From Chrysochromulina tobinii (taxonomy: Eukaryota > Haptophyta > Prymnesiales > Chrysochromulinaceae): a DNA stretch of 43,375 bases. Shown one piece after another: positions 13,501 to 36,221 of this stretch. A model generated the notes under the pieces. That model made no database searches. It saw nothing but the letters and a program-made list of their open reading frames with translations, and was not told the DNA's origin. Both the position numbers and the translations under genes were made by a program. Within the stretch, counting starts at the first letter, position 1; each line of letters starts with the position of its first letter. The stretch is taken from assembly GCA_001275005.1 (NCBI GenBank), contig JWZX01002168.1:1-43375 (forward strand), given 5' to 3'.

Positions 13501-15984
13501 GCTCGCTGCCCGCCGAGGCCGCGCAGCTCGCGCGCTCGAAATTCGGCCGTGTGCCCCTCCAGCATCGGCCCCACGCTTGGTTGTGCCTCTCGGGGGCACG
13601 CGACCTGATGCTCGCCTCCGCAGTACCATATCGGGAGCTCGTACGACGCGCCGAGATGGGCGAGGCGCCCATCGACCGCGACGTGAGCAAGCAGCTCGAC
13701 CGCGACCTGCCACTGATGACCTCTGATGACCTCTGATGACCTCTTGATTGCTCCCCTCATCAGGTGAGCAAGCAAATCGAGCGCGACCTGCCACGCACTT
13801 TCCCACAGCATCGAGCCTTCGCATCCCCCACAGGGCTGCGCGAGGCACTGCGGCGTGTGCTCCTCACCTATGCGTCGTACAACGTCTCGGTCGGCTACTG
13901 CCAGTCACTCAACTTTATTGTGGCCATCTTCTTGTTGGTGGCGGATGAGGAGGGCGCGTTTTGGCTCTTGGTGGCCCTCTGTCGGACGGTGGTGGCGGAC
14001 TACCACACACGCGATATGAGCGGTGCGCGGCGCGCGCGAGTCAGGAGGCCTTGCATGCAAGTGCTCACCACGGCGCTCCCCTTCCCCACAGGGCTGCGCA
14101 TCGACACGGCCGCCTTCGTGACGCTGGTACAGGAGAAGCTCCCTTCGCTGCATGCGCACTTTGTCAAGCTCGAGGTGCCTCTCGATCTCTCTGAGTTCCT
14201 TTGAGTTCGTCTGAGTGCGCCTGAGTTCGTCTGAGTGCGTCTGAGTGCGTCTGAGTGCATTGCATACAGGTGCCTCTCGAGATCCTCGCCTCGCTGTGGT
14301 GGCTCATCGCATGCTGATTGCCACCCTCATTGCATGCAGGTGCCTCTCGAGATCCTCGCCTCGCAGTGGTGGCTCTGCCTGTACGCGAACGTGCTGCCCA
14401 CCGCCACGCTGCTGCGCATGTGGGACGTGGTGCTCGCGGGCGGCGGCGTGGACACGCTCGTCGCCTCATCCCTCTCGCTGCTGCGTCGCTTCGAGCCGCG
14501 CCTTAAAGAGACAGAGGTGAGCTGATTGCGACTGCTGATGAGCGTTGATTGCGCCCCTCATCAGGTGGGCGGCGAGTGCCGAAGCACTCGAATCTTGATG
14601 ACGAATGAGTGCGGCTGATGAGCGCTGATTGCGCCCCCTCATCAGGACATTGCGGGTGTGTATGCGGTGCTCGCCGAGGCCACTACCGCCGTCTGGGACC
14701 CCGACGAGCTCATGCTCTCGATGCAGGTGCGCTGATTGCCACTGATTGCCACTGATTGCCACTGATTGCCACTGATTGCCGTGTGGGACCCCGACGAGCT
14801 CATGCTCTCGATGTAGGAGGAGCCCCCGGCACTGATTGCCACTGATTGCCACTGATTGCCACCTACATCGATGCAGGAGGAGCCCCCCGGCACAGATTGC
14901 CACTGATTGCCACTGATTGCCACCTACATCGATGCAGGAGGAGCCCCCGGCACAGATTGCCACTGATTGCCACTGATTGCCACCTACATCGATGCAGGAG
15001 GAGCCCCCGGCACAGCGCCTGGCGATGCACGAGCAGCGCGAGAGCAAGCGCAAGGAGGTGCTCGAGGCGCTCATCCGAGACCTTCCATGCTCTGAAGCGG
15101 ACGTGATGCGACTGCTGCAGGTGCGCTGATTGCCACTGATTGCCACTGATTGCCATGGATTGCCATGGACTGCCACGGATTGCCACTGATTGCCACTGAG
15201 TGCCACTGAGTGCCACTGAACGGACGTGATGCGACTGCTGCAGCTCCATGATGAGGTGCAGCGCCGCCAAGGCTTCGTGCACAAGAGTCATTCGATTGCC
15301 ATTGCTGCCGCCGAGGCCGGGGTGCCCAGCTCGGCGGCCGAGAGCACCTCGCTGTGCGCCATGTGCCTCGATAGATACATAAGTGCAACCGACCTTGCAA
15401 GGCTGCTCCTGCTCGGCAGCCCGATGGCCGGTTTGGGGCTTGCCGCGCCCATCGGGTTCACGCGCTCTCCTGAGCGCTCAATACAGCGCGGCGCGCACCC
15501 GAAGAGGCCGCCGTTACAACGGTCTGGACGAACACGTGTGCTCCCGGAGGATGCGGTCGTGGCGGCCAGGACGAAAGCACTGACCGACGATCTGATCGCC
15601 GCCATGGAGGCGGAGGCCGCAGCGGAGGCCGCAGCGGTGGCGGAGGGGGCAGCGGAGGCGGAGGTGGCAGCGGAGGCGGCGGAGGTGGCGGCGGAGGTGG
15701 CGGCGGAGGCGGAAGTGAAGACGGCCGGTGACGTTGCTGAGGCTGCCAACGGCGATGCGCACTCCGACGGGGCCGCTCGGGACGGCGCCGCTCGGGAACC
15801 CCACTCCGACGGGGCCGAGAGAGCGTACAAGGCGGCGGTGGCTGCGTCGGAGGAGATCTTCCTTGTGCTCGACCCGGAGCATGTGGGCTCAATCTCGGTG
15901 CGCCAGCTGCTCGTCGCCTTCCACCCGCCCTCCGCAGAGCTCCGGCTCGCTATAGAGAGGGCGGGGCTCGAGCTCGTCGAGTGA
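10503..15984 (+). CDS. PDZ / C2-like / TBC-domain Rab GTPase-activating protein, seven exons
   Basis: Exons: 10503-13682, 13764-14022, 14092-14174, 14340-14516, 14646-14726, 14998-15120, 15244-15984. Frames join at every junction (1547 residues). The start is uncertain (ATG 10503 or 10656). An N-terminal PDZ (GLSLNEANVILRIDADGLAA to VTFVVARR) is followed by long Ala/Pro/Ser low complexity, a C2-like strand-rich segment before 13340, and a TBC domain from about 13370. The dual-finger residues are present: IERDLPR (Arg finger, exon 2) and VGYCQSLNF (Gln finger), so it should accelerate GTP hydrolysis by a Rab. Exon 4 has LLRMWDVVLAGG. The last exon has an Ala/Glu-rich tract and a degenerate EF-hand-like LDPEHVGSISVRQLL. 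Five of six introns are repeat-built with exon copies; intron 2 (14023-14091) is ordinary. Confidence 0.85.
11640..11694 (+). repeat. 12-nt coding minisatellite
   Basis: Repeats of gacggcgctcac encode (TALT)n in the low-complexity part of TBC exon 1. Being a multiple of three it preserves frame. Confidence 0.85.
12018..12110. repeat. Paired inverted repeats inside TBC exon 1
   Basis: Two direct copies of gcgcccaacacagcg (12018-12032, 12036-12050) are followed by two copies of the complement cgctgtgttgggc (12080-12092, 12098-12110). The mRNA could fold into a strong two-register hairpin. The frame stays open (Pro/Ala and Gly/Ala/Val residues). Confidence 0.85.
12495..12578 (+). repeat. 21-nt coding minisatellite, four units
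   Basis: Four units of gcttcgtcaggcgcggcgcc plus one base encode (ASSGAAP)4, with one Ala to Val change. The unit length keeps the frame. Confidence 0.9.
12975..13070 (+). repeat. 60-nt in-frame tandem duplication in TBC exon 1
   Basis: A segment starting gcctctcctcacgaggcgct (12975) is repeated at 13035 with a few changes. The two are separated by gcatgcaagtgctcacaacg, itself related to 12450-12475 and to a stretch in intron 2 (14053-14075). The protein shows ASPHEALLFTLPV then ASPHEALAFSRPV. This is the kind of exonic duplication that elsewhere in the gene has become an intron. Confidence 0.75.
13683..13763 (+). repeat. TBC intron 1: exon copy plus decamer repeats
   Basis: This 81-nt intron starts with gtgagcaagcagctcgac and copies the first 31 nt of exon 2 with three changes. 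It then has three TGATGACCTC units and ends gctcccctcatcag before the real gtgagcaagcaaatc. The intron copy reads QLDRDLPL, lacking the Arg finger residue of the exon (QIERDLPR). Confidence 0.93.
14175..14339 (+). repeat. TBC intron 3: nested exon copies
   Basis: The intron begins gtgcctctcgatctctctga, runs through TGAGTNCGTC-type units to an acceptor-like ttgcatacag (14269), then carries a second copy of the exon-4 start (14270-14305, about 34 of 36 nt). That copy is followed by an in-frame TGA and the real acceptor ttgcatgcag (14339). Two duplication rounds are visible. Confidence 0.92.
14517..14645 (+). repeat. TBC intron 4: duplicated acceptor module
   Basis: The donor is gtgagctgattgcg. 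The module gatgagcgttgattgcgccc + ctcatcag occurs at 14538-14564 and again, with one extra C, ending at 14645. The second is used, because the sequence after the first (VGGECRSTR) hits a stop. Confidence 0.88.
14727..14997 (+). repeat. TBC intron 5: multi-copy exon-end duplications
   Basis: The donor is gtgcgctgattgcc. The 271-nt intron has TGATTGCCAC arrays, one 36-nt copy of the preceding exon end (14781-14816; CAG changed to TAG), and three roughly 62-nt units. Each unit starts with gaggagcccccggcac (copy of the exon-6 start) and ends tacatcgatgcag. Any of several AGs could act as acceptor; only the last gives the open frame. Confidence 0.93.
15121..15243 (+). repeat. TBC intron 6: upstream exon end copied to intron 3' end
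   Basis: The intron is an array of TGATTGCCAC/TGAGTGCCAC units. It ends with an exact 23-nt copy of the end of exon 6 (cggacgtgatgcgactgctg + cag). Here the duplicated piece is the upstream exon, opposite to intron 1. Confidence 0.93.
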
Positions 15985-16247
15985 GGCGTAGCACGAAGCA
16001 CGGAGCTGCCGTGCGTGCGGTGGGCGTCGGTGCGATTCTCGTCTGTGTGGCGTGGGAAAGGCTCGGCGTTTGAGGCTACGTTACATGTAGCTCGGATCCT
16101 TTGGCAGGACCTTCTAGACCTTCTCGAACTTCTTTATATTGCAGCGGATTCACAATATGCAGAGAAAATTCGCAGCTTCATTCCCCTTCCAAAAGTGGAA
16201 AAGAAGGTTTTCGCGCGATCGCGATCCATGCGGCCCACGACGCCCTC

Positions 16248-18033
16248 ATGAACCTCACGCTGCCCGCAGACCTCATCTGGACGGTGGCCGTCACTCCTCT
16301 CGAGGAGCAGCTGCCGCAGCCAACAAAGGCACCACCCCAACCCATTCCGATCCTCAAGTGCGTCCAGACCCCTGCACGCGCCTCGCAATCCTCCATCAGC
16401 AGCCCCTGACACGCGCGGTCTTTGTGTGCGCGCAGTCGCGTGGTCGTTAGCAACCACGCGGCAAAGGCGGCGTTGCGCGAACGCCGAGGCACGCATGATG
16501 CGGCTCATCGTGTAGTGATGCACGTGCCCTCGGCTCCGCCGGAGCTCCGCGTGATGATGTCGATCCCGACCATCTTCAATCCGAACTTGAACGGCATGGA
16601 GCCCATTTCCGACTTCCTTCCCAGCCCGAACGAGACGGTCGGCTTCAAGTGCGCCCCTCGCCTGTCGTGTCCTGATTGCCCGCGATGCACCGCGCGTGCC
16701 CATCTCGCAACGATGCCCGCGAGGCGCGCGCTCCCTCTCCCCACGCCATGTCTCCACGCCACCGCGTGGTTTTGTCTCATCTGCTTGCCCCCACCCTTAT
16801 AACCTCGCAGCTACAAGGTCGACGGGATCCTCGGCTCGGGCTCCTTTGCCACCGTCTTCCGCGCCGTGCACGAAGGCGCCCAGAACCGGCCCGTGGCACT
16901 CAAGTGCCTAAAGAACGCAAAGGAGACGATGGATGCCGGGCTGGGCGAGGCCCGGGTTCAATCTATGATCCGCCTACATGACCCACTCGGCCGCCGGCAC
17001 ATTGTGCGACTGCTCGACTGCTTCTACTACCGCGAGCACCTCTTTCTTGTGTACGAGCGCCTCAACGCGTCCGTCTCGGCGCACTGCACGCACCTCGAGA
17101 CACTTGGCCCGCGCGCGCGCGCTGAGTACTGGCACGCAGGCTCGATCGGGGCCCTCTCCATCCAGATGCTCGACGCGCTCGCCTTCCTCACCTACCTCGG
17201 CATCACGCACTGCGACGTCAAGACGGCCAACATCTGCATCGTCAACGCGGAGCGTCGCATCTTCAAGCTAATCGACTTCGGCTCGGTTGTCCTCACGCAC
17301 GATGCCCACATGTCCTACCTGCAGGTGAGTGCCACTGAGTGCTACTGAGTGCCCCCCGCCCGATCACCTCCCAAGTGCCTCCCGATCGCCGCGCCTCGGT
17401 GGTCCTCACGTGTTCGACACCCACCATGACGCCCACCCACCCCCTACCCTGCAGAGCCTCTGGTACCGCGCGCCCGAGGTGATCCTCGGCCTCAGCTGGA
17501 CGCCCAAGATCGACGTGTGGTCCCTCGGCTGCGTGGCCATCGAAGTCGCGCTCGGCTTCTTGCCCTTCCAGTTCGCGTCGACTGAGCTCGTCCTCGCTGC
17601 CCACAATGCTACCCGCGGGCCCTTCCCACCATGGATGATGGAAGGGCCACTCGGATCCATCTACTTCTCCGGCTCCGGCTGCGTGTACGAGATCGACCCT
17701 CGCGCCGCCGCCCCGGGCGCCTACCTGCTGCACGCCGTGCCCAACACGACGCTGACCGAGCTGCTCGTCCAACAGCTCGATCCCGCCATATTCGGCGACG
17801 TGGTCTCCTTCGGTAACTTCGCAAAGACGCTTCTGACCGTCGACCCCGACGTACGCCCTACTGCGGCGGAGGCGCTGCAGCACCCGTGGATGGCCTCGTA
17901 TGGTCTCCCCCCAATCGATCCTCCGATCGTGCCTGAGGGCCCGCTTCCCCCGATCGATCCCCAGTTCAATTCCCCGATCGGCGCGCCTGTGACGCCCGCG
18001 TCGTCGGACGAGGTCCCTCTGACGGCGAGATAG
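16248..18033 (+). CDS. DYRK-like (CMGC) protein kinase, four exons
   Basis: Exons: 16248-16357, 16436-16648, 16811-17324, 17455-18033 (471 residues). Splice sites are gtgcgt/gcgcag, gtgcgc/ctcgcag and gtgagt/ctgcag; all frames join. A short NAPA-like N-terminal region (PNLNGMEPISDFLPSPNETV) precedes YKVDGILGSGSFATVFRAV (Gly loop), VALKCLK (VAIK Lys), HCDVKTANICI (catalytic loop in the HCD form typical of DYRK/HIPK) and IDFGSVV (DFG). The activation loop reads MSYLQSLWYRAPEV; the autophosphorylated second Tyr of the DYRK YxY is kept, the first is Met. WSLGC and RPTAAEALQHPWM follow. It should be an active Ser/Thr kinase. The start may be further upstream if a 5' exon was missed. Confidence 0.85.
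17325..17454 (+). other. Kinase intron 3
   Basis: This 130-nt intron (gtgagtgccactgagtgcta to cctaccctgcag) begins with two units of the decamer type (TGAGTGCCAC, TGAGTGCTAC) but otherwise looks ordinary. It interrupts the activation loop right after YLQ. Confidence 0.85.
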
Positions 18034-18846
18034 CCCAGAGGTACACCCGAGGTAGCCCCATACTATGGGCGCGGCAGAGCTAGGCGAGCGGACCACGGCA
18101 CCGCCGCGTAGACGCACACCGCGCAGCGCCTACAGCTACACGCGCGCCGTTAGACGAGTGGCCATCCCTCCGGCGATAAAGGTGTCGTCGATGGCATTTA
18201 GGATACCTGCCCGCACGCACGCGCCTCGAGAGATACTCATGGAGCAGCCCTACGGAGTAAGGCTGGTGAGTGATCGGCGCAGCGCGCGGTGCGCCTCTTT
18301 TCGCTCTCGACGGGGGGTGCGGCAAGGGCGGTGGTTTGGCGGTGGTGGATACGGTTGGGGAGGGCGTAGGCGGAGGCAGGCATGGTGAGTGACGCATCTA
18401 GCGTGCCGCTGCTCCACGAGATGCCGGCCCGACTGCAGTTAGACTCCCTGCGGTCGCGGCCGCTCCGTGACGGCAGACATACGCTACAAGTAGAATCTAG
18501 ATCAGACGGTGCACACAGTCACATCCAAGCCGGACCGGACGGACGGCGCAAGGAGGTCTTAGTGTGTGTATTCTAAGTATTAAGTAAGTGAGTAAAGTAA
18601 TCTGTATTAAGCAATCTCCAAGCACAAGCAAGGTGACGCGAATATTCGTCAGTGTCATTCGGCGACGCGATAGATTAGAGAGTGAGATTATCAGTAACAT
18701 ATGCCTTCAATCGAATCCCATAAGTCGTTCAGTCAACCGGCGCTGCATCATTTTCTTTCTCTCTCCCGCGCGTGCTATGGATCCCGGATTCCCACCAATC
18801 CCACGTGCAGGCCGTCAGGAACAGGACGAGGCTGCCGCTTTGGCGG
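18034..18846. other. Tail-to-tail intergenic region
   Basis: About 0.8 kb lies between the kinase and GH31 stops. 18065-18400 is GC-rich with one open frame of biased composition that I do not accept as a gene. 18550-18720 is AT-rich (tattaagtaagtgagtaaag). No RNA gene or repeat array is visible. 3' UTRs of both genes are expected. Confidence 0.5.
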
Positions 18847-21800
18847 TCACGGCGCCACGATGGAGCCACTTGCCCCAATGTCGACGACATTGCTCGAAAC
18901 CACCGGCCCGCCAGTTGCCTGATAGAGGACGAGGCGCAGCTGCGTGAACATCGAAGGTGGCGAGGGCGCCCCGCGCGAGACGACCCACGAGAGCGTACGT
19001 GCCTTGTCGTCCCAGCTGAAGGTGGTGCCGCGCATCGCCGTCGCCGTCGCGTAGTCCGTCGTCTCACCATCATCCTCAATCATCTGGAACGCGCCGTCCG
19101 CGCCGCCGTACACGCGCACCTCGAGCGGCCCACCCGGCAGCGCCCCAGTGTACTGCAAGAGGGGCACGAGGGGAACGATGGCGCCCGCGGGCGCAAACAC
19201 GGGCACAGCGGTGAAGTTGTCGTCGCTGTGAACCACGTCGATCGTGGGTCCCCTGATGGGGATCGTCCTCGTACCTTCCTTATTTGGCTCCGTGTCGAAG
19301 GGATACCACAGCCCCTCAGGCAGGTAGGCCGGGCTCTTCTCAGTCTCGCTTGTGAGGATCGGCGCGACGAGGAGCTCGCCGTCGAGCCACTGCGCAGTCA
19401 GGTCGGTGACGACGGGATCGTTCGGAAAGGCGGCGGCGAGCGGGCGCATCCACAGTCTTCCGGTGGTGTGCATCGCATGTGCGAGGGAGTAGTGGAACGC
19501 GATGAGGCGGTAGCGCTGGTTGAGAGCGCTGCGCATCCGGCTCGCGTATGGTTCGGGCCACAAGAAGGGGAAGTGCGGCTTGGCGTTCAGGGTACTGTGC
19601 ACCCTCATCGTGGGGAAGAAGGCGCCCGCTTGCATCCAGCGCGTCAGCAGCGGGCCGTTGGTCTCTCCAGTGAAGCCGCCGATATCGCACGCTACGTACG
19701 GCGCACCCGCAAGACCCCATCGGAGGATCATCGCGGGTGTGGACAGGAGATCGTCCCAACTTGGGTTGATGTCGCCTGTCCATACGGTAGCGCCCAGTCG
19801 CGCCATGCCAGGCGACCACGCGCGGTTGATTGAGTAGAAGCGCGCCGTCGAATTGTGCGCTGCGAGCGTCTGCTGCTGCGCCAGGTTCCAATAATAAAAG
19901 GTGAAGTAGTCGGTCTCGCCCTCGTCGTTCCAAAAGAAGCTCACGCCGTCGCTCAGGTAGTGCTGCTGGTGCGATACGTACCATTCCCGCGCGGCCGGGA
20001 TGCTGTAGTTGAGGTTACGCTGCTCGGCGTACAGTGATTTGGAGTGCAGCGCCCGCATGGTCTCAGGGGTCTCGCTCAGATTGCGCGGCGGCGCGTCGTA
20101 CTGGGCAGTCTCCCCCCCCGGCAGCACGAAGCCCTTTTGGCGTGCCTCGTCGAGCAGCGCCGTGTTGCCGAGCCGGGGCTTGCGGATGCCGCCGAAGCGA
20201 ATGTGCCTGTCCTCACGGTACGACTGGAACTGCTGCTGCGGCTCCGGGAAGGTGGTGGCGCCGTACCTGATGAGGGATGCACTCAATGGTAATCAGTGGT
20301 AATCAAGGGTATCAAGGGATGCCGCGTAGCTGATGAGGGGCGCAATCATCGATGAGGGGCGCAATCACGGCTGCGGCTCCGGGAAGGTGGTGGCACCGTA
20401 CCCAAAGTCAGTGTACCACGAGACTCCTTCTGGGGTAATCAGTGGCAATCAGTGGTAATCAGTGGTAATCAGTGGTAATCAAGGCACCGTACCCAAAGTC
20501 AGTGTACCACGAGACTCCTTCTGGGGTAATCAGTGGTAATCAGTAGTAATCAGTGGTAATCAAGGCATCGTACCCAAAGTCAGTGTACCACGAGACTCCT
20601 TCTGGGGGGAAGCCGTAGTCGGAGATGTTTGTGAACCATTCAAACTGCGATGAGGGCGGGAGTCGAGCGAGCGTGCGAGTTCACAGCGGGTTCACAGCGG
20701 GTTCATCCGCGTCTCATGGGCGGTCAGCAGTCAGCATGCAATGAGCGGCTTCATCCATGCAATCAACGGCTTCCTCCGCGTCACATGGGGTCAGCAGTCA
20801 GCACGGGTGCACACGCGCGCGGCAGGTCGAGGGGTCCCGGCTCGCACATCGCCGATTGGATATTGGAGGTAATCCGTGGTAATCAGTGGTAATCAGTGGT
20901 AATCAGTGGTAATCAAGGCTCGCACATCGCCGATCATGGCGTCGATTGGGTATTGGCCGTCGCGGAACTGCTGGAGCATCGACTCAATGTACGCGCGGTC
21001 CTTCCATCCCCAGCGGGACGCGAAGAAGCCGAACGCGTATCGTGGCGGCACGGCCGGGGCTCCGATGAGGGCATAATACGATTGCGTGCCCTCGTCGAGC
21101 GTCGACGCGGGCATCAGGTACAGCTCGAAGCCCGTGCCCCGTCTGGGGTGATTCCACGTGACGGCGCTCGTGGTGCGGGTGAAGGTGCTGGGGAAGAGGT
21201 TCGTCTTGCCGCTCCCCGTCGTCTCGCTCTCCGGCACCACGCCAAGGCAGCCGTAGCCGTCGGTGGACCAGTAATAGGGGGCGAAGACGCGCGTGTTGTC
21301 TACGACCGGGGACACCGTACCCGTGATGCTGAGCGCCCTGGCGCTCTTGTCGGCGCCCGCCCCGTACAGCGTGCTGGTGGGCGACGCAGAGAGGACCAGG
21401 CTGCGGGGCCCGAAACCAGTCCCTAGTGTGCGGTCTGAGCGCGGCATCGTGCCATCGATGGCGGACATGAGCCAGCAGTTGCCTTCGGAGTCGCCCGGCT
21501 GTCCATAGATCCAGTGGGCGCATCCTTTCGTGGCCTTGCACTTGCTGCAGCACTCGGCCTCGTTGTGAACCGTCGCCGGATCACCCGCCCGCGTCCCAGC
21601 CGTGATGTCGGTACCCTGCTGTGCCGCGCACGTGTCATTCGATGAGCCACCGTCAATCGGCATGGAGCGCGTCAGCTCCTTGCCGTGCGCGTCGAGGAGC
21701 ACAAGCTCGGAGTTGGGAGACACGAGAACGCTGCCAATGGAGGCAGCCACGATGCCCGTGCCAGTCACACCAGACACCTTTTCGAAGCTTGCATCTGGCC

Positions 21801-21990
21801 CTTCAGGAGCGACCATTGGCGTGTCTATGGGAGCCTCGCCAGCGGTCGTGAGGAAGCGCACACGGAAGGCCGAGGTGCCTCGCGTGGACAAGGCGATCGA
21901 TCCAGAGCCAGAGGGGAGCGGCACGACTACTTCCGCGTCGAGCGCGGCGGCGGCCATGGCGGCGACGCCCATAACGAAAAGTGATGTCAT
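18847..21990 (-). CDS. Glycoside hydrolase family 31 with a PAN-like insert, three exons
   Basis: Exons on the minus strand: 21990-20926, 20644-20574, 20266-18847 (851 residues). A signal peptide (MTSLFVMGVAAMAAAALDA) starts exon 1. A Cys-rich PAN-like insert (ECCSKCKATKGCAHWIY) lies in the N-terminal part. The GH31 barrel begins FFASRWGWKDRAYIESMLQQ and continues across the introns: IDAMIGD|FEWFTNISDYGFPPEG. Catalytic motifs are FFWNDEGETDYF (nucleophile Asp) and TVWTGDINPSWDDL (acid/base Asp). The C-terminal beta domain follows. It is a retaining alpha-glycosidase of secretory or extracellular glycans; alpha-glucosidase versus another specificity cannot be told. Both introns are repeat-built and contain copies of exon ends. 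Sulfotransferase and transporter genes lie upstream on the same strand. Confidence 0.88.
20267..20573 (-). repeat. GH31 intron 2: exon copies including an uninterrupted exon-exon junction
   Basis: A 44-nt block (the end of exon 2, encoding EGVSWYTDFGYGA) occurs three times: 20564-20607 (real exon and junction), 20483-20526 and 20392-20435. TGATTACCAC arrays separate them. The third copy runs directly into a copy of the exon-3 start (20369-20400), so it preserves the sequence as it would read without an intron. The intron ends tgcatccctcatcag before gtacggcgcc, and begins gtacgatgcc. Confidence 0.93.
20645..20925 (-). repeat. GH31 intron 1: decamer array and exon copy
   Basis: This 281-nt intron starts gtgcgagccttgattaccac with four TGATTACCAC-type units. 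It then has a copy of the exon-1 end plus donor (atcggcgatgtgcgagcc, 18 nt identical), short repeated stretches (gggttcacagc and catgcaatgagcggctt types), and ends ccctcatcgcag. The exon phase is 0. Confidence 0.9.
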
Positions 21991-25144: not shown

Positions 25145-28100
25145 TCAATTCACATTGAGGTCGATGGCGCGCAGAGGGGCGAAGCTTACATCCTCGTCCT
25201 CGGTGCACAGCATCGCGAGGGGCTCATCCACCGCGCAGCGCCGTGCAAAGTTGTCGAGCGCCGCCGCGCGCGCGTCGGCGTCTTGCTCGTCGCGCCCGTC
25301 GTACGGGGCCAGCGTAAGGAAGCCACCGCCAGCGTGCACGTCGCGCCCAAGCGAAGGGGCGACGAGCAACAGCTTGAGCAGCTCGCGCAGCTCCGATGCC
25401 TCATCTCGCGAGCCGCGTCGCTCGAGCACCTTGGCGTAGATGGAAGCGAGGGTCGAGAGTGTATCGGGGGCATCGGCGAGAGCGATGAAACCGCTCGCGG
25501 CGGCCGCCTGCTCGTGGAGGGTCGAGATCGCGTGCAATAAGAGGCCATCAGAAGAGGAAATCAAGAGGCAATTAACGACACTCGCCTGCTCGTGGAGGGT
25601 CGAGATCGCGTGCAATCAGAGGCCATCAGAAGAGGCAATCAAGAGGCAATTAACGACACTCGCCTGCTCGGCCGCGGTCGCGACTCCGTGAGGGTCGTGA
25701 TCGCGTGTAATCAGAGGCTATCAAGAGGCAATCCAGAGGCAATTAACGACACTCGCCTGCTCGGCCGCGGTCGCGACTCCGCCTCGGTGCGTGCTACTGC
25801 CGCCTCTGCCGTCGCGCCCTCCACGATCGAGACTCTTGTCGAGGTCGCGAATCCTCTCCACCGCCTCGGGCGGCGCGGCCAGCAGCTTCCGAGCCGCCGC
25901 GGCCAACTCGAGGATGTCCGTGGGCAGCAGCACGTTTGCGGGCAGCAAGTTCGCTGACCTCGTCAGCTCGCGAGGAGGGGTGCTCACGCGTACGGTCAGC
26001 GAGGGAGGCTGTGAAGAGGCCGGCTGTGAAGGGCCTCCGCCGCTCTTGCTGCCGCCCCGGCCTCGGTCGTCCCGGCCTCGATCGTCCCGGCCCTGGTCGG
26101 CGATGATGAGAGCGCGCGGGCGGAAGATAGTGCCTCCCTCGAGCACCACGTGCTGCGTGGGCGGCTCGTGCCGATCGTACCGATCGCGCGAGCCCGAGCG
26201 CGCCGGATCGTAACGGTCGCGATCCGAGCCACCCCCTGCAGCGGCCGAGATGGTCGCGAGGGGCAGCGCGCCCCACCCGAGGACCACCACCCTCTCGGGC
26301 TTCTCGGGCTCGACACCGGCGGACCGCTCGTCGCGACCATCTCCGCCGCTACGCCCAAGACGGTCGCCGCCGCGGTCGCCAGAACGGTTGCCAGCACGGT
26401 CGCCGCCGCGCTCGCCGCCGCGGTCGCCGCCGCGGTCGCCGCCGCCACCCCCCTTCGAGCGACTTGCGATGGTGACAGTGAGCTCGAGCAGCAGCTGAGC
26501 GCCACGTGGCATCGAGGCCGAGCGCAAGAGCAACTCACGAGAGCCGCGGGGCAGCAGCCACTGGTTGCGCTTCTCGTCGTAGTCGACGTCGAGGGAGAGC
26601 GTGTTCGCAAAGAAGGCATACTGCGCGCCCGAGGCGGCGCTCGGCGGCGGAGCCGAAGAAGGGCGCGCAGGGTCGTAGCGGTCGTAACGGTCGCGGCTAG
26701 ACGTGGCCGTCGGCGGCGGCGCACGCGTCATCTCAAGGATGGCGACGCGCATCGCCCGCCGTGTGATGAACTCATCTCGCGCGAGCTCCGGAGGCGGCGG
26801 CGCGCTCGCAATGTCATCGAGCTCGAGCAGGTAGCTTGGTGCTTCGAGAGGCACGAGCATCTTGAGGTCGTCGATGAGGCACGCGCGCTCGGAAAGTGGC
26901 GCGGTCACGTCGGCCGTGAGGACGGCGGAGAGCGCGTTCAGGTGCAGCCGCTGCCGCCCGCTGATCGGAGAGAGCGCGAGCGGTAGCGGAGGACGCTTCT
27001 CTTCCCCGCGCCGCTGTCGCTCGTCGTCGTCATCCTCACTGCGGTCGCGGTCGCGGTCGCGGCCGCGGTCGCGGTCGCGGTCGTTGTCGCGGTCGCTGTC
27101 CCGCCCCTTGTTGGCCTCGCCGCGCTCCTTGCCCCCTTTGGTGCGCCGCCCATCCTTCTCGTCCTCCTTGCGGTCCTCCCTGACTGCCTCGGGCAGCCAG
27201 CGCAGCGCGCTCAGCACCGACACGCTCATCGTGAGCGCGCCGACCGACACCGCCTTGCCGCCGCCGCCGCGCCGGCCGCCCTTCTCTTTGGGCTGCTCGA
27301 CCGGTTCGAGCGACCGGCGCACATTCGTCCAGTCGCCGTCTGCGGCAGCGCCCTCGTCGCCCTTGCCCTTGCCCTTGCCCTTGTCCTTGCTGCCTCTCGA
27401 GTCCTTCGCGTCCTTGGGCGGCGGCGTGCGCAGCTCGCTCAGCGGCAGGCGCAGCGTGCCTAGCAGCATGCGGTTCTCGCTCAGCCCGTGCTTGCGCTCC
27501 AAGTCGACGCCGTACAGGTTGAGCACCACCGCCTGCTCCGCCTCGGGCAGCTCCTTCAGCTTCTTGGCGAGCTCATCACGAGATCTCTTGAGCTGCGCGG
27601 TCGCCTCGCCCTTCGCCTCAGGGTCGCGCGTGCGCAGCTCGAGCGCCGCGCTGGGCGTCGCGTGGTCGTGAGCACGTCCCTTGCGCCGTCCGAGGTCGAC
27701 AGGGGGTGAGAGTGTCTCCCCCATCCCGAGCACCGAAATGCCCACCTGCAACGCGTCCACGCGCTCATCGAGCTGCTGCGGATCCGCCAAATGGACCGTG
27801 TGCACCGCCACGTGGACTCGCGTCGCTCGAAGCTCCTCGCGCAGCTTGCCCAGCGCCGAAGCGGCGAGGAGGTCGACGGTGACACTCGCGACCGTCTTGC
27901 CGCCCTCGCGCGCGAGCGTCTGCTTGTGCTTCGTGTAGTCGCCGTTCTTGAGCGTAGTCTCCAGGTTGAGCGTCGCCTCACCTGCGGCGTCAGTTGGCCG
28001 AGCTTCGTCAGAGAGGCAATCAGTGGCAATCAGTGGCAATCCGTTGCAATCAGTGGCCATCAGAGGCCATCAGTGGCAATCAGTGGCCATCAGAGGCCAT

Positions 28101-31100
28101 CAGTGGCCATCAGTGGCAATCAGTGGCAATCAGAGGCCATCAAAGGCCATCAGAGGCAATCAACGAATCTCACCCAGTTCGAAGCGTAGCTCCTCGTCGC
28201 GCTCGCCCTTGCTCCGCGAGGTCTGGCCGCGCGCGGCCGAGGCGGGCGCGAGGGCATGCAGCACCAGGTATACATCCGAGTCCTCGGGCGCCACGGTCGC
28301 AAGCGCGTCGAGCAACGCCCTGCGCGCGGGTGCACCGGCCGACGTAGCAAACGAGCGCTCGAAGGCGAGCGGCTGCGTGGTGCCGTCCTTGTAGAGGTTG
28401 AGCCTCTCCGTGTACAGCGGCGCTTCCTTGCTCGTGATCCCCTTGATGTCAATCTCAATCTGCACCGTGTCGAGACGCTCGAGGCGGTGCTTGCGGATGA
28501 GCTCGTCGATCAGATCGGTCCCTTCGCGGCTGAGCTCGAGCCCCTTGAGCGTCATGCGCAGCGGCTCGTCGACGGTCTTGCCGCCACCGCCACGCCATGG
28601 CGGCACGTCCCCACCCTTGCTCTCGCCCTTGCTGTCCTTGTCCTTGTCGTCCTTTCCGCCCTTGGTCTTCTTGGGCGAGTAAGACTCTCCTCGCGCATGC
28701 GCGGCCGAACGCTCCGCCTGCTCTGCCTCGGCTTCGATGGCGCGGCTCGCATCCTGTGGAGAAGGAGAGGCAATCAGAGGTCATCAGAGGTCCTCAGAGG
28801 TCAGCAGAGGTCATCAGTGACGGGGCGCCGTAATGAGCGCATCGCACCTGCTTCTCCTTATTGAGCCACTTTTGGAACTCAGAGAGCGCCTCGGTGCATG
28901 CAAGCGAGACGACGAGGGTGCCCACGCCCTCCTTGCCACCCGCCGGATCAGCATCTGCCAGCTCGAGCTTGCGCTCCTCGACGTCGTCGCCGAGCTTCAT
29001 CAGCTCGACCAAGTTGAGCTTCGCCTTGCCGAGGATCGAGCCCTCGGGCTTCTTGTCCGAGCTCCCTGCCTGCTTGGCCTCCTTGTCGCTCAGGCCGTAC
29101 AGCAGGAACGTCACATTCGACGCTTCCTTGTCGTCCTTGTTAGCGAGCAGCTCGAAGAACGCGCGGCGCTCCGCGGAGCCAACCGCCAGCCCGTGCGCAT
29201 GCGACCACTTGAGCGTCGTCTTCTCGTCACCCTTGTGCACCGACGAGCCGAGCTGGAGGGTCTTTCCGTCGGCGGCGGGCACCTCGATCCAGATGCGCAG
29301 GTGCGCTGGGGGCTTCTTCTTCGCCTTGCCGCCGAGCGTGAGGGAGTGCAGCTGGAACGTCATCTTGTACTTGGTTGCGAGCGCCGCCACGTCCACCGCC
29401 TTCTCGCTGCCGCCTGCGCCCGCCGCCGCCGAAACGGTCGACGGTGCGGCGGCCGCAGGCTTGTCAGTCGCGGGTGCACCTCCGCCGCTGCTCTCGCTGT
29501 TCACACTCCCCTTCACACTCCCCTTGGCGGCGGCTGGCGTCTTGCCGTCCGCTTCGTCGGCGATCAGCTTGAGCGCGGAGAAGCCCTTGACGGCGCACAC
29601 GAGCGTGCCGATCACGGCCTTGGAGCCAGATTCGACGAGATCGAGCGCGCCATCAAAGTCCTTCTGGTCGGCCAGGAGCTTCTCGAGCGAGACACGCCCG
29701 AGGCCCACCTGAGGAAGGAGGCGATCAGACGACATCAGGGATGCAAACGACATCGGGGTGCAATCAATGGTAATCAGTGGTCATCAAGGCCAGACGCTCC
29801 CCCCGAGGCCCACCTCCTTGCTGATGCCCTCCTTGTCTGTAACCACCGCCGCGAACTGCACCTCGCTATCCTCGGGCTCGCTCGTCTTGAGCGCGCGCAC
29901 AATCGCGGTGCGGAGGTCCGTTCCACCGGCCACGTCGTACGTCTGCTCGAGGGCGAGCGCCGTCGAGGTGCCATCCTTGGACTCGATGGTGATCGGCTCT
30001 GTCTTGACCTCGAGGCTCGCCACGCCGACCATGTCGATCAGGATGTGAAGCGTGCCGCTGCCGGCGGCCGCGGCGCGCCGGCCGGAGGAGGCGGCTGCGC
30101 CTCCGACGCTCGTGAGCACCGCCTTGCTGCTGATGGTGATGCTCTTGATCGCCACGGTGAGGGTGCTCGAGGCCACAGTGCGCACCGCCTCGGCCGTGAG
30201 CGCGCGCAGTCCCGCGAGGCATTGAGTGGTTACGAAGAGCGCGCCGGCTTCGGAGGCGCTCTTCGACGAGCCATCGCCTGCCCGGAGTGCAACGCGCGTC
30301 TTCGTGAGCTCGGCTCCCGTCGAGAGTAGTGTCGCCAGGGAGAGGCGCGCCGTCGCGATCACCGGCCCGTCGGCGGACCCGCCAGCGGACGCGGGCGCGG
30401 GTGCGGGCGCTGCTGGCGCAGGCGCGCCACCATCTCCAAAGACGTCAGAGTCGAAGAGGGACGGCGGCGGGTCGTCGGAGCTGAAGTCGTGCACGACGCC
30501 CTTGTCCTTGGGCTTGGGCTTCTCTGCTGTGGGTGCACTGCCGCCACCGCTACCCCCCGACGCGGCCCGCAGTGTGAAGACGACCTCCGAATCGACGGGC
30601 GTCTTCTTGGGCGCGAATGCCTTGATGGCGGCCTCACGTGGCGCCGTGCCGGGCTCGAGGGCAAACGAGGCGTCGAAATTGGCGGGAACGGCCTCACCCG
30701 CCTTGGGGGTGAGCGCGGCCGAGGTGCTCGACACGACACCGAGCAGGTCCACGTGGATGACCAACGGCGCGATGGGCTTGGGCGGGCGCACGAGCAACAC
30801 CTCATGCACGGACAGCTTGAGGTTCACCGAGCCCGGCGCGCCGCCGCCAGAGCTCTCCTTGAGCGTGCGAAGCGCGGCGAGAGCGACCACCGAGACGCTC
30901 AGCGTCCCAAGGGTCTCCTTGCCGTTGGGGGAGAGCACGGGGCGCGGCGCCATGGGTGAGAGGTCCTGCCCGGCCGCGAGCAGCGCCTTGAGCGACACGT
31001 GGCAGATGCCGTACGTCGAGGCGCTGCCGCTTCGGTCGAGGGTCTCAACCACGAGCTGAATCTCGCTCTCCTCCTCATCGGCCGCCTCGAGCGCCGTCGC

Positions 31101-34100
31101 GAGCTTCACGGCGAGCTTCGAGAGTGGCGCGAGTGTGAACGACTTGGAGAAGGGGAGTGCGTAGAGGCCTTCGCCGTGCGCGGTCGCCTTAGGGGTCGTC
31201 TCCTCGAGCTCGGCCACGCCGAGCATGTCGACGAGCAGCCGCACGCCATGGCGCGCGGCGGGCGGTGCTTTCTTGAGCTTGAGTTCCGTCACGTCGACGA
31301 AGAGTTGGTCCGAGTGCGCCGACTTGCCCATGGTGGCGAGTGCCGCGATCGCCTTGACGCCGACGGTGAGCTCGCCCACCACGACGCCGGCGCTATCGAC
31401 GATTGGGCGTGGCGTGGGCGGCAGGTCGGCGCCCTTGGCGACCAGATCATCCTCCAGATGCACACGCGCCACCTGATGAGGGGCGTCATCAGGAGGTCAT
31501 CAGAGGCAATCAGATGGCGACCAGATGGCAACCAGCATGCAATCAGAGGCGCACTCACCCCGAGCTCGGTGCATGCAATCAGAGGCGCACTCACCCCGAG
31601 CTCGGTGCATGCAATCAGAGGCGCACTCACCCCGAGCTCGGTGTGCTTCGACTTGTCCTTCGGGTCGACACCGAGCACGACGAACTGGATCTCGCCGTCG
31701 TCCTTCTCGGGCGACGCGAGCGCGTCGAGCAACGCCTGACGAAGCGGCGTCCAGGGGTCATCAGGGCTCATCAGGTGTCATCAGGGCTCATCAGGGCTCA
31801 TCAAAGGTCATCAGTGGCACTCGCCTGACGAAGCGGCGTCCCGTCGGGCTCATCAGGGCTCATCAGGGCTCATCAAAGGTCATCAAAGGTCATCAGTGGC
31901 ACTCGCCTGACGAAGCGGCGTCCCGTCGGAGACATCGTACGCCTCGACCAGCCGCAGCCCCGCGCGGCCAGAGCTCATCTTCTCCTCGGCGGCTCGCAGC
32001 TTGCCCGCGTCATTGCTGCCCGGCATATCGATCTCGATGCGCACGAGGGACGTCTTCGCAAGCTTGTCCTTGAGTCGGATCGCCGTCAGCGTCACCTGAT
32101 GAGGGGCGTCATCAGGAGGTCATCAGAGGCAATCAGATGGCAATCAGATGGCCATCAGATGGCCATCAGATGGCAATCAGCATGCAATCAGAGTCGGATC
32201 GCCGTAAACTGCACCACGATCCGCTGCGACGCGCCCGACGCTTCCTTTTTGCGCTTCTCCGCCTCCGCCACACGCGCCGTCGCGAGCTGCTCTTCGAGCT
32301 GCGCCATCGCCGTCAGCACCTTGCACGTGCACATGAGCGTGCCCACCATCGTCCCCTTGGCCGCCTCGAGTGCATCGGCCGACGCTGATGGCGCGCCGGT
32401 CGGCGGTGCCGCGAGCTCGAGGCTCTCGTTCACGAGGTCCTGATGAGGGGGGCAATCAAGAAGTCATCAGAGGTCATCAGGGAGTCGAGCAATTGGGCGA
32501 CGGTGCCCTGATGAGGGAGGCCATCAGAGGTGCACTCAGAGGTGCACTTAGAAATCAGAAGTGCAATCCACGGCAATCAGAAGTGCAAGGAGAGGTGCAC
32601 TCAGAAGTGCACTCGGAGGTGCAGCCAGGTGGGTGCCGGTAACGACTTGGGCAGGCACCTTATTCTCGTCCAGCAGCGCACCCATGTCCACCACGCCGAG
32701 CGCGAGGGGCGCCGTGCCGGGCGCGACGCCGCCCTTCTTGTCGGTCGCATGCAGCTCGAACCGAATGGTGCCCTCCCGCCCGTGGAGTACCTCGAGCGGT
32801 GTCGGCGGTTGCGCCGCCCTCGCAGGCGGCGCGTCGAGCGCGAGCAGCAGCGCGCGTGTCACCTCGCCCCCTGCGCTCACCTTGACGGAGTGGGTCAGGC
32901 TGAAGGTGCAGCTACCATCCACGCCAAGCGAACCTTCGGCCGAGAGCATCGTGATGATCAGTAAGTGGCAGTCAGTAGCAATCAGTAGCAATCAGTGGTA
33001 ACCAGTGGCAATCAGTGGCAATCACGTGACGAACCTTCGGCCGTCGCGAGCGGCTCGACGGTTGGCTGCCCGCCGAGCTTGACGAGCAGCTTCACCGGCG
33101 TCTTCTTCGCCGGCTTGGCGGAAGCGCTCGTGATCGTGGCGACCGTGGCGCCGACAGTGACCACTGCCTTGGCCGCCAGCTTGCTCGCGAGCGCCGAGAC
33201 GGGCGCTCGTCCGGCGCTGACGGCGAACGGCGTGAGAGCTGCGATCGCGCCCACGGTGCATGTGAGCTCACCGAGCTTGGCACCAATGACGCCGTCCACC
33301 GAGGTACCGATGATGGAGAGCGGGCCCGAGTGGTCCTTGCCCTCGGAGACGAGCTGCTCGAGCGAGCAGCGCGCCACGCCGATCTCACCCTCGGGCAGCT
33401 CGTTGCCCTTCTCATCGCAGGCGAGCACGACGAACTGCACCTCCGAATCCTCAATCTCGTCCGACTCGAGCGCCTTTGCAAACTGCGCCACGAGCGGGTT
33501 GCCCGCGGCCACAGCGAATTCCTTCTTGAAGGCCAAGGTCGCGCCGGAGGCTCGGCGCGGCAGAGTGATGAGCTCAGAGGCTTCCTGGGCCACGCCGAGC
33601 ATGTCGAGCTCGACGCGCAGCCGGGCGCCCTTCTCACCCAGGGAGCCCGCGGCGCGCGCCAAGACCTTATCGGCGAGCGTGAGCGATCCCATGCTCACCT
33701 GATGAGGGGCGTCATCAGGAGGTCATCAGATGCAATCAGATGACAATCAGATGGCAATCAGGTGAGCGATCCCATGCTCACCGTCACCGCCTCGGGCGTG
33801 CCCAGCGCCGTGCTGAGCGCGCCCGCGAGCGCGTCGTTCACGGCGTCGGCCCGGGGCGATGAGACTCCGTCTACCCCGGCCTCGCTCTCGGGGATCTCGT
33901 CAGATCGGATCTCGCCGCTCCTCTTTGAGGGGCTGAAGGCGCGAACCGCTTTCATCGACGCGCCGAGTCGGCGGCTCGGAGTCAGTGAGCTGTTGGGCTT
34001 CGCACTCTCGGGCTCCTTCTTCGTACTGCCGGGCGCCGCGCCTGCCTTCGAGGCCTCGGCTGCCTTGGCCGCCTTGCCGCTGAGCCCGACGCCCTTCCCC

Positions 34101-36221
34101 TCGTCCTCCTCGGTCTCGGGCGCGCGCCGACGGCGAGCCGCCTCGGCCGGCGCCGTCTTGGGCGCCTCCTCGGCCGGCTTGGGCGCCGTGGCGGGCGTTT
34201 TGGACGCGTTCTCGACCGCTTTGAGGGCCGCGATGGCGGTGATCATGCACGTGAGCTGGCCGACAGGCTCCTTCTCACCGGTGCGACGGATGGCCAGCGG
34301 GCCCGAGTGGTCCTTGCCATCGGAGACGAGCTGCTCGAGCGAGCAGCGCGCCACGCCGATCTCGCCCTCGGGCAGCTCCTTGCCCTTCTCATCGCAGGCG
34401 AGCACGACGAACTGCACCTCTGAATCCTCGGTTTCATCAGAATCGAGCGCCTCGAGATACCTAATTAGGGACATGGGGCGCTGTGGGGTGAGCGCTTGCA
34501 TGCAAGGAGACGCAGGCCATCAGTGGCAATCAACGTACGTGAGACGCAGCGCTGGTTGTGCGCGCGCGTGCATGCAAGTCAGGTCATCAACGGGCAGGTC
34601 ATCAGTGGCAATCAACGTACTTGAGCGCGAGCTTCGACTCCGGTCCGGCGAGGTAGTCTCTCTCAAACGAGAGTGGCGCACTCGCCTTCGCACCGAGCTT
34701 GCTCGGGGCCGTGCGCAGGTTCTCCTTGTCGGTAGCAAGCATATCAATCTCGACACGAATGTACGTCACCTTCTGCGGCTTGGCGTCGGCCGCGGCTCCT
34801 TTGCCCTTGTTCGCCGCCGGCAGCGTCGCGCCCGACTCGGCGAGTGTCACGGACGAGAGCGCGACGCGAACCGACGGAACGCCACTCAGAGCCGTGGCAG
34901 CCACGGCGGCGCCCTTGCCGCCACTCAGGCTCAGGATGCTCCTCTTCTTGCCGCCTTCGTCGGGCGCCGTGTCGTCTTCCTCGGCGTCGAGGCCGCGCAG
35001 CACCGCCAGGCACTCGACCGTGCACGTGAGCGTGCCGAGCGGCTGCGGATTCGTGTGGAGGCGGACATCAGAGCTCATCAGAGGCCGTCCTTAGAGGTCC
35101 TCAGAGGCAATCAGAGGTCATCTGAGGCCATCATCAGAGGTCCTCAGATGTCCTCAGAGGCCATCAGAGGCCATCAGAGGCCATCTGAGGCCAGCAGAAG
35201 GCCATCAGCGCACCTGCGGACTCTTGTCAAGGGAAAGGATCGGCAGCTCGCTCTCCTCATCCTCGACGTCGCGCAGCCCGTCGATCGACTTGCTCAGGTC
35301 CACCTCGGCCGTGCCCAGAGGCGTCGCCTTGCCCCCCTTCTTGACCGAATCCACGTAGATGCGCAGCTTCAGGCTCGACTGTCGTCGCGCCTTCATCAGC
35401 GCAGTGCAAAGCGCCGTGCCGGGCGGCACCGGCCACGTCGCGTCAAACTCCAGAGCCGCCACGCTGTCCGTGAGCGGGAGCGCCGGGCACGAGATGGGTT
35501 GGAGCAGCCCGGGCGGCACGCCCACCACCTCGCAGCGCAGCGCTGCGTATTCGACAGCCAGGGCCTTTGGGCTCTTGGCATCAAGAGCGAGCTCTGTCGC
35601 CTTGAGCACGAGCACCTGACGGCTCTTGGTAGCCTTGGCGGCGACGTCGGCGGCGGCGGCCTCCATCGCGTCGGCCTTGAGCGCCGTCATCGCAGCGAGC
35701 GAGTGCGTCGTGAGCGTGAGCTCTCCCACCTGGCTGCTCGCGGCATCCCGCACGGGCAGCGACTCCCCGTGCACCTCCTGCTTGTTGTGGAGGATCGTCT
35801 CGAGACGAAAGACGGCCGTGCCGAGGAGCGTCTCCTTGGCCGCAGCCGAATCTTTCTTCGCCGACGTGGTGGGTGCGTCCTCGTTCACGCCGTAGACGTT
35901 GATGAGCACCTCGCTATCCTCATCTTCATCGGTCAGCAGTGCGGCGATGAGCGCTTCGCGCACCGGGTTGTCGCTGCCACTCGAGCCGATTTCGTACTTG
36001 CAAAGCCAGTTGACCTTGGCCTCGCCAAGCTTGAGAACCACGGCCGCCGACCGCTTGAGCTCGTCCTCTTGCCCGGGCATGTCCAACTCGACGATCACCT
36101 TCTTGCCATCGTACCGCTGTGCGAGCTTGCTGGTGAGCGAGACGCTCACCACCGTGAGCTCGATTTTCGCGTCGGCCGGCGTGCGCGCGCCGAAGAGAGA
36201 GATGCGCGACACTGCTTTCAT
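25145..36221 (-). CDS. Giant protein with at least twelve RPGRIP1-C-terminal-like C2 repeats, 13 exons
   Basis: Minus-strand exons: 36221-35214, 35042-34621, 34460-33782, 33698-33035, 32933-32647, 32439-32215, 32095-31907, 31735-31631, 31472-29814, 29708-28848, 28753-28174, 27981-25757, 25507-25145; 3088 residues, every junction in frame. The start MKAVSRISLFGART is the first ATG. A unit of about 160-200 residues recurs: LRVELDMLGV..., (D/E)DSEVQFVVLA, (G/E)xGVARxSLEQLVxxGKD, xxGELTCTVxAIAAL. This pattern resembles the C2 domain at the RPGRIP1/RPGRIP1L C terminus, which binds ciliary transition-zone partners. I count twelve clear units plus decayed ones near the C terminus. Linkers are charged or Pro/Ala-rich; one has RDRDRDR repeats (27030-27100). 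A ciliary or haptonemal scaffold is inferred. All twelve introns are repeat-built; introns 7 and 12 are GC-AG. Confidence 0.85.
25508..25756 (-). repeat. C2 gene intron 12: GC-AG, three donor copies
   Basis: The exon ends GCCGAGCAG and the intron starts GCGAGTGTCGTTAATTGCC. The block GAGCAG|GCGAGTGTCG... occurs at the exon border and twice inside the intron. The copy near 25680 matches over about 46 nt including ggagtcgcgaccgcg. The acceptor is CTCCACGAGCAG before GCGGCC. Confidence 0.9.
27982..28173 (-). repeat. C2 gene intron 11: long decamer array
   Basis: The donor is GTGAGATTCG, followed by about fifteen TGATTGCCAC / TGATGGCCTC units and the acceptor ACGCCGCAG. Exon duplication is limited to GGTGAG at both borders. 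Phase 1. Confidence 0.92.
28754..28847 (-). repeat. C2 gene intron 10
   Basis: The donor is GTGCGATGCG. Five TGATGACCTC/TGAGGACCTC-type units follow and the acceptor is TTCTCCACAG. Only GATGCG is shared by the intron start and next exon. Confidence 0.9.
29709..29813 (-). repeat. C2 gene intron 9: 12-nt exon copy
   Basis: The intron begins GTGGGCCTCGGGGGG; the next exon begins GTGGGCCTCGGGCG. Degenerate TGATNNCC units follow and the acceptor is CCTTCCTCAG. Confidence 0.9.
31473..31630 (-). repeat. C2 gene intron 8: triplicated donor and shared 3' module
   Basis: A 36-nt unit (CACCGAGCTCGGG|GTGAGTG...) occurs three times in a row, the first at the real exon border. The 3' part (31473-31518) is almost identical to the 3' parts of introns 3 and 6 and ends CGCCCCTCATCAG. 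Confidence 0.93.
31736..31906 (-). repeat. C2 gene intron 7: GC-AG, three exon copies
   Basis: The exon ends CTTCGTCAG and the intron starts GCGAGTGCCACTGATGACC. GGACGCCGCTTCGTCAGGCG is present at the donor side, in mid intron and at the acceptor side. The two upstream copies are identical for about 45 nt. No GT donor gives a joined frame. Confidence 0.9.
32096..32214 (-). repeat. C2 gene intron 6: exon copy and shared 3' module
   Basis: The intron begins GTGCAGTTTACGGCGATCCG and the next exon GTGACGCTGACGGCGATCCG; the last 15 nt of the block (ACGGCGATCCGACTC) are identical. The 3' half matches introns 3 and 8. Confidence 0.92.
32440..32646 (-). repeat. C2 gene intron 5
   Basis: The donor is the weak GTCGTTACCG after CAA; the acceptor is CCCCCCTCATCAG. 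Inside are TGAGTGCACCTC units, an internal CTCCCTCATCAG acceptor-like site (32508-32519) and a short stretch after it sharing GCCCAA with the exon end. A micro-exon there cannot be excluded. Confidence 0.7.
32934..33034 (-). repeat. C2 gene intron 4: exact 14-nt flanking duplication
   Basis: CGGCCGAAG|GTTCG stands at both borders, with the AG|GT splice point inside it. Between them are TGATTGCCAC/TGATTGCTAC units. Confidence 0.92.
33699..33781 (-). repeat. C2 gene intron 3: exact 20-nt exon copy
   Basis: The intron's first 20 nt (GTGAGCATGGGATCGCTCAC) are identical to the first 20 nt of the next exon. Four TGATT/TGATG units follow, then the shared 3' module ending CGCCCCTCATCAG. Confidence 0.95.
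34461..34620 (-). repeat. C2 gene intron 2
   Basis: The donor GTACGTTGATTGCCACTGAT recurs about 80 nt downstream inside the intron. Two TTGCATGCA stretches follow. The acceptor is CCCTAATTAG before GTATCTC. Phase 2. Confidence 0.88.
35043..35213 (-). repeat. C2 gene intron 1
   Basis: The donor GTGCGCTGATGGCC matches the start of TBC introns 5 and 6 (GTGCGCTGAT). About fifteen TGATGGCCTC/TGAGGACCTC units fill it. TCCGCAG ends both the exon and the intron. Confidence 0.92.

Follow-up and report, generated by a model that had tools for sequence, protein, structure and literature searches.

Introns built on a 10-nt array between duplicated exon sequences: a dispersed and locally spreading family in Chrysochromulina tobinii

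Introduction

The origin of new introns is a long-standing question; in many young ones no clear sign of how they were born survives. Contig JWZX01002168.1 of Chrysochromulina tobinii (43,375 nt; the window), one whole contig (C1067) of an assembly of 53.15 Mb in 2253 contigs, carries genes for a TBC RabGAP, a kinase, a GH31 glycosidase, a sulfotransferase, a giant protein with RPGRIP1-type C-terminal domains (labelled the C2 gene) and a diatom-type pyrenoid-shell protein. Twenty-one introns are listed here in four of these genes (TBC 6, kinase 1, GH31 2, C2 12; 3378 nt in total), and most carry arrays of a 10-nt unit. The central feature of the family, detected at about half of the modules studied, is that the array DNA lies between two copies of host sequence, and that these copies supply the splice site missing from the insert. 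A first-pass annotation had described the arrays; the flanking exon duplications, the common 3′ module and the local spread were absent from it, and together they tell how the introns arise. A single gene displays the insert, the duplicate and in some cases a likely donor, and at least one empty site is found in public metagenome data, so that models of intron gain become testable site by site.

Results

Sense-oriented arrays in the window

The strict unit, CTGATKRCCW, matches the window 65 times, compared with 0.74 matches expected from shuffles. Plus-strand matches occur only at 13.7-15.2 kb and minus-strand matches only at 20.2-35.2 kb; all 65 fall, in the sense orientation, within 18 modelled introns of the TBC, GH31 and C2 genes. 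The kinase-gene intron presents loose CTGAGTGCY units only. With loose units included, the earlier count (about twenty introns, four genes) stands; strict units are found in three genes. The claims of the first-pass annotation that the unit is always sense to its host gene and is absent from intergenic DNA are also true of the window, where intergenic DNA is scarce. The presence of the unit in many contigs is supported as well.

Each unit consists of CTGAT followed by five variable bases, the commonest form being CTGATTGCCA. Among 182 middle units (those between two CTGAT units), each of positions 1-5 is constant at 93-94%, while the commonest bases at positions 6-10 reach 59, 54, 76, 79 and 38%. 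The array is thus real as first described, but of its ten bases only CTGAT is constant.

Host exon sequence is duplicated across the insert

The clearest case is the intron at 33781-33699, where the exon runs into GTGAGCATGGGATCGCTCAC, followed by a 63-nt insert (CTGATTGCC..CCCCTCATCAG) and by GTGAGCATGGGATCGCTCAC again, now as the next exon. At about half of the studied 3′ splice-site modules the intron start copies the start of the next exon (14-55 nt); elsewhere the intron end copies the preceding exon. Such an exon-start copy was found at 39 of 81 CCTCATCAG sites and at 33 of 507 control CAG sites (Fisher P 4e-19). This second control was drawn away from units, and 16 of its 33 hits come from one tandem-repeat locus, L012 (positions 6200-10000 of that locus are a tandem repeat of gene size, in which CTGAT matches are often spaced by 127-138 nt and form no 10-nt array). 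A first control, at score ≥14, gave 42/345 compared with 35/81 module sites and was poor since tandem-repeat genes were included. A free-start repeat scan detected a copy at 42 of 76 modules (the 81 sites less five without.TGA at -20). In both scans, then, the adjacent exon is directly repeated across the new intron, as looked for under break repair. After removal of tandem and second-order cases, 23 clean duplications remain, of 14-55 nt (median 24). Copy blocks exceeded the threshold in 19 of 55 cases and in 1.1% of 270 in a displaced null; the cross-locus null was contaminated by array flanks.

Three splice-site arrangements are reported within one gene. In the first, seen in most modules with a copy, the 5′ site comes from the copy and the 3′ site from the insert. 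In the second the 5′ site belongs to the insert, and the 3′ site comes from the copied end of the exon (15121-15243, and two introns of locus L010 at about 7626-7843). In the third the copy provides both sites (33034-32934).

These duplications invite a rival explanation, in which tandem genomic duplication of exon pieces made the introns and the arrays then grew by slippage from a branch-point-like seed. Exon piece and array do recur together in tandem many times (36-, 60-, 78- and 93-nt units), and AG|GT lies within some duplicates. Yet at 33699-33781 an exact, single duplicate still encloses an insert, a 31-nt segment is common to three introns with different targets, and a 36-nt segment recurs in 59 contigs. 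We regard this origin as distinctly improbable.

At the 3′ side the junction is precise in most cases with a copy. At the 5′ side a unit begins at the junction in 11 of 29 cases, and nine of these units open with one or more bases that belong equally to the host (P 0.001, for a C frequency of 0.33); two of the 11 cases, from L035, are nearly one site. Reverse transcription of intron RNA, or of a short retroposon, at a nick would leave duplications of variable length, a constant 3′ end and variable 5′ truncation, and the constant ATCAG end beside the duplicate, the variable 5′ end and the 9/11 microhomology suit it. The genome holds 26 matches to RVT_1 (reverse transcriptase), 22 of them over the cut-off; many lie in long open frames. 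Against retroposition, a constant 3′ end is demanded by splicing too, inserts without ATCAG (15121-15243 and 33034-32934) are unlike the product of one fixed 3′ end, and the local spread described below is not expected of a free RNA element. Retroposition is, on this balance, unlikely.

A 3′ splice-site module and a dispersed family

The 20-nt 3′ splice-site module, CTGATNRCNNCCCTCATCAG, has 1387 copies in a search of the whole genome (685 + 702 by strand); the reversed sequence has no match and a version with its last half inverted has five. GT or GC follows directly in 1133 copies (82%), where we estimate about one in six from base composition, and the next exon begins with GT in 50 and with GC in 15 of the 76 modules. 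The 5′ counterpart, CAGGTGCGCTGATNRCC, has 37 genomic copies.

The 31-nt segment common to three C2 introns, which have different duplicated exons, has no further match in the genome when up to three mismatches are allowed. The 36-nt segment is present in 93 copies in 59 contigs, with 12 unchanged copies in 10 contigs, and the family is therefore dispersed. Highly similar introns at non-homologous sites define introners, and the 1387 modules and the 36-nt segment in 59 contigs are of this kind.

Dispersal of one consensus, exact copies included, is also what an ordinary introner would produce: a non-autonomous DNA transposon that carries its 3′ splice site and whose target duplication is made by a transposase. 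The ends CTGAT..ATCAG form a short inverted repeat, although one partly demanded by splicing, and introners with 4-bp duplications are reported in Chrysochromulina (Gozashti et al. 2022, PMC9860276). That source gives 3-9 bp for some families; the 23 measurable cases here span 14-55 bp, and shorter duplications may occur in the half of modules without a measured copy. The 5′ ends of the inserts vary, three splice-site arrangements occur in one gene, and with 82% of modules before GT or GC few copies seem to lie outside splicing contexts. These points make a DNA transposon quite unlikely. The duplication length and the inverted repeat bear on that kind of element only, because other introner families are described there as lacking both 3-9-bp duplications and terminal inverted repeats (PMC9860276).

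Clusters of at least three units were present in 7 of 20 ten-kb regions, which were sampled at regular intervals of contig number. For the 65 clusters in all sequence sampled (overlapping loci L002-L006 and L029-L031 removed), the flanking coding strand gave 46 sense, 6 antisense and 13 without a call, after a first scoring of 44, 4, 4 mixed and 13; random positions scored in the same way gave 1184 and 1147 of 3000. The 47 clusters outside the window are the fairer count, since the codon model was trained on window genes: 30 were sense, 6 antisense and 11 without a call. The sense rule therefore extends to most clusters, but it is not absolute. Two modules of L010, at 6803-6843, are opposite in strand to a gene. 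For a LINE/SINE-type retroposon, copies outside genes and in both orientations would be expected; the figures that bear on this are the all-sample cluster calls and the share of modules before GT or GC. Inverted units (..GCAATCAGG..) were also noted in L010 at 2490-2720 and 6790-6850, as repeats of about 21 nt, a length able to keep a frame open; the other arrays of that gene are sense.

Spread within contigs

Derived changes in the 36-nt segment are shared between neighbours. After removal of pairs with a consensus-identical copy, the proportion in common was 0.471 for same-contig pairs 150-5000 nt apart (29 pairs in 10 contigs, one contig contributing nine) and 0.043 for different contigs, and none of 5000 permutations reached the same-contig figure. 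The value is 0.367 without contig C201 and 0.255 without C201 and C930, the two most repetitive contigs. Units also fall into dialects by gene (0.155 within, 0.094 between, P 0.001), and modules differ by 1.90 mismatches within a locus compared with 2.46 between loci (P 2e-7). Among the first 100 of the 1387 places, 23 of 24 neighbouring pairs separated by 150-3000 nt have both modules on the same strand, as do 8 of 11 pairs farther apart; merged at 300 nt, the sites occupy 38 contigs compared with a random mean of 56 (minimum 46). Because neighbours on one contig have more private 36-nt variants in common than copies on other contigs, we conclude that the family spreads locally as well as genome-wide. 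A search for donors of the insert filler matched 13-mers in the same locus as well as in others; these were mostly array words, and the search left the donor undecided.

A bolder reading is that introns breed new introns in their own gene, a nearby intron (as DNA or as just-excised RNA) serving as template for the filling of a staggered break in an exon, with the missing splice site supplied by the duplicated exon and no transposon involved. Local templating would account for sense orientation, for the dialects of units in each gene and for the scarcity of copies outside splicing contexts. The constant 3′ end would be well explained by an intron-RNA template, but some inserts do not have that end, and it is also selected by splicing. 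We put this version forward tentatively and rate it well below even odds.

An empty site in a metagenome relative

The metagenome protein cluster P0244 (50 members), 94% identical to a stretch of the C2 gene over the aligned third of the query, lacks the intron 33034-32934 and reads ..PTVEPLATAEGSLGVDGSC.. through a single copy. The window flanks joined at AAG|GTTCG yield its peptide, and the two differ by the insert and one 13-nt duplicate. Both ends of P0244 pass, by eye, into intron-like read-through, and its source thus appears to be unspliced, whether DNA or RNA, rather than a spliced message. In this one case, which possibly concerns a paralogue, P0244 represents the insertion-free allele expected of a recent insertion.

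A second relative, P0241, has the exon end as in the window at 33781, then IRMIASLIRMIASLIR, and by eye continues 16 residues past the common exon copy. At the protein level this read-through would be two 21-nt units, also by eye, unlike the array of the window; the array itself may differ between strains.

Role of the unit

CTRAY is the branch-point pattern, and CTGAT fits it. The bases of CTGAT are held together as a five-base motif and its columns are among the least changed in the 36-nt copies. The branch-point proposal of the first-pass annotation gains from this constraint, although use as a branch remains at the level of the plausible: CTGAT is probably the branch point, and the array may offer a series of candidate branch points or may be where copying is primed.

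The same annotation held that stop codons in the units mark unspliced RNA for decay. Every 10-nt unit does contain TGA, and three units cover all frames. Selection for TGA alone would not hold C1 and T5, however, which are as constant as TGA, and P0241 reads by eye 16 residues into its intron. The decay proposal is weakened accordingly; we reject a stop-codon trap as the sole function and consider selection of the array as such a trap very improbable. Avoidance of AG and GT in the array is not supported, as 36 and 21 of the 182 middle units contain AG or GT. The boxes CTGA and TGATGA recall intron-encoded C/D-box snoRNAs, and six weak Rfam matches to C/D families were obtained (best E 0.0024). 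All six fall under the gathering score, the commonest unit CTGATTGCCA has no TGATGA, and the usual C/D guide does not fit a 10-nt spacing. This reading was set aside as scarcely credible.

Gene models and inventory of the introns

With the intron models the TBC, GH31 and C2 genes regain long reading frames. For the C2 gene a program predicted 14 introns; two without units were dropped and five were re-drawn, four by eye (34620-34461, 31906-31736, 31630-31473 and 25756-25508) and one (33034-32934) from the junction analysis. The GH31 junctions, compared by eye, agree with eight of nine aligned homologues among the best 120 of 204, which run through both; three are transcriptome sequences, and the ninth begins past the second junction. 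Among the relatives of the C2 stretch (7 of 7), the more distant P0245 (43% identity) runs through three C2 array-intron sites, by eye. Two array introns are, by eye, of the GC-AG type (Table 1).

Table 1. Introns of the window, with their arrays, exon copies and ends
Intron	Coordinates	Strand	Features
TBC 1	13683..13763	+	31-nt copy of next-exon start (GTGAGCAAG..) + CTGATGACCT array + CCCCTCATCAG
TBC 2	14023..14091	+	no array; second dispersed motif GCATGCAAGTGCTCAC ahead of CCCCACAG
TBC 3	14175..14339	+	CTGAGTGCG-type array, then next-exon-start copy (GTGCCTCTCGAGATCC..), then one CTGATTGCCA
TBC 4	14517..14645	+	two 3′ modules, ends CCCCTCATCAG / CCCCCTCATCAG; loose units only
TBC 5	14727..14997	+	CTGATTGCCA arrays; 34-nt exon copy TGGGACCCCGACGAGC..; 60-nt tandem repeat; 3′ splice site within copied exon sequence
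TBC 6	15121..15243	+	GTGCG 5′ splice site from insert; 3′ site from copied exon end (..CTGCTGCAG)
Kinase	17326..17455	+	CTGAGTGCY units only
GH31 2	20267..20573	-	CTGATTACCA arrays flanked by 42-nt and 32-nt exon copies
GH31 1	20645..20925	-	CTGATTACCA array
C2, GC-AG	25508..25756	-	tandem 78- and 93-nt repeats of exon copy + units; boundaries by eye
C2	27982..28173	-	about 15 units
C2	28754..28847	-	CTGATGACCT array
C2	29709..29813	-	12-nt exon copy GTGGGCCTCGGG (copy by eye)
C2	31473..31630	-	three tandem 36-nt copies, then 31-nt 3′ segment common with 32096 and 33699; boundaries by eye
C2, GC-AG	31736..31906	-	intron end copies exon end GGACGCCGCTTCGTCAG; boundaries by eye
C2	32096..32214	-	start resembles next exon (15 identical nt, offset 9); common 31-nt 3′ segment
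C2, intron or intron pair	32440..32658	-	two CCCTCATCAG ends
C2	32934..33034	-	13-nt copy GGCCGAAGGTTCG contains both splice sites; absent from relative P0244
C2	33699..33781	-	63-nt insert between exact 20-nt copies GTGAGCATGGGATCGCTCAC
C2	34461..34620	-	CTGATGACCT and CTGATGGCCT units; boundaries by eye
C2	35043..35213	-	5′ end GTGCGCTGATGGCC; exon-side ends have only TCCGCAG in common, possibly by chance

A second dispersed motif, GCATGCAAG[CT]GCTCAC, often followed by CACGGCGC, occurs 13 times in 266 kb, with sites in the window at 12449, 13013 and 14053 (+) and 34503 (-) and elsewhere in L010 (6753), L016 (4187), L020, L023 and L033. It stands several times directly ahead of a CCCCACAG-type intron end and twice within a long exon of the TBC gene, and is perhaps a second intron family.

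The intron-dense C2 gene adjoins an intron-free LRR-PDZ-kinase frame (36713-43375, minus strand), uninterrupted over 2221 codons and open at the contig end. The gene set of the window, including the diatom-type pyrenoid-shell protein, in itself makes an alga the most likely source; the best named matches of that protein among the best 120 of 3234 are Aureococcus (82%), Haptolina (80%) and Prymnesium (76%).

Discussion

We consider it probable, at roughly 60%, that these are young spliceosomal introns of an introner-like family, born by insertion with duplication of the host sequence. The array, the module, the duplications, one empty site and the local sharing of variants are observed; the copying reaction, branch-point use and splicing itself are inferred. 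A piece of an existing array intron would be copied into an exon, where a staggered break or nick would be filled with a neighbouring array intron as template. The host sequence at the site would be doubled (14-55 bp where measured, 13 at the empty site), with one copy on each side. A piece that brings ATCAG would take its 5′ site from the duplicate, one with GTGCG or GTGAC would take its 3′ site from it, and one with neither kind of end would take both; splicing would then restore the message. Copies would reach distant contigs and, above chance, nearby sites of the same contig, and later growth would proceed through tandem duplication and unit slippage. Sense orientation would result because only sense copies splice, perhaps also because the template is a neighbouring intron, and CTGAT would be kept because it is probably the branch point.

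Several observations weigh against birth by insertion with host duplication. No duplication was detected at about half of the modules in the exon-copy and free-start scans, and the lower bound of 14 nt is partly set by a score threshold that misses copies shorter than about 10 nt. Two of the 19 above-threshold blocks are array-to-array matches. Same-contig sharing is seen in six of ten contigs and in none of the other four, and could partly be segmental duplication; the 80 nt upstream of modules rank no closer to each other in one locus than across loci (P 0.23). The empty site is a single case, where the exon order of P0244 differs upstream from that of the window and suggests a possible paralogue, and the insert at this very site has no ATCAG end.

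Some parts of this scheme have counterparts elsewhere. Schiml et al. in 2016 reportedly obtained tandem duplications after paired nicks, and the inserts of the Daphnia staggered-break introns are not known to form one recurring family. The Daphnia introns resemble ours in their internal repeats, but their exon repeats are of 4-12 bp (PMC4202315) where the present duplications span 14-55 bp. Tandem genomic duplication likewise doubles an exon piece and uses its latent splice sites (PMC3443670); here array DNA lies between the copies. Repeat expansion in Cryptococcus yielded new introns identical to their neighbours within one gene, but in a repetitive region of that gene (PMC2395259), whereas the present family is spread over many contigs at differing targets. 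The portions of the literature searched yielded no description of introns that combine 10-nt arrays with host duplications of this length.

The closest likeness is to introners, whose recorded cases include Chrysochromulina and Aureococcus (PMC9860276). Host duplicates that supply splice sites have already been reported for them, with duplications of 3-9 bp where present (Gozashti et al. 2022, PMC9860276). Shared with the present family are similar introns at unrelated sites, a splice site supplied by the duplicate and the occurrence of several arrangements. What differs here is the variable 14-55-bp duplication, the body made of a 10-nt array, the three arrangements in one gene and a spread that is both local and dispersed. 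The long variable duplications, the branch-like 10-nt array and the local spread set the family apart from known introners.

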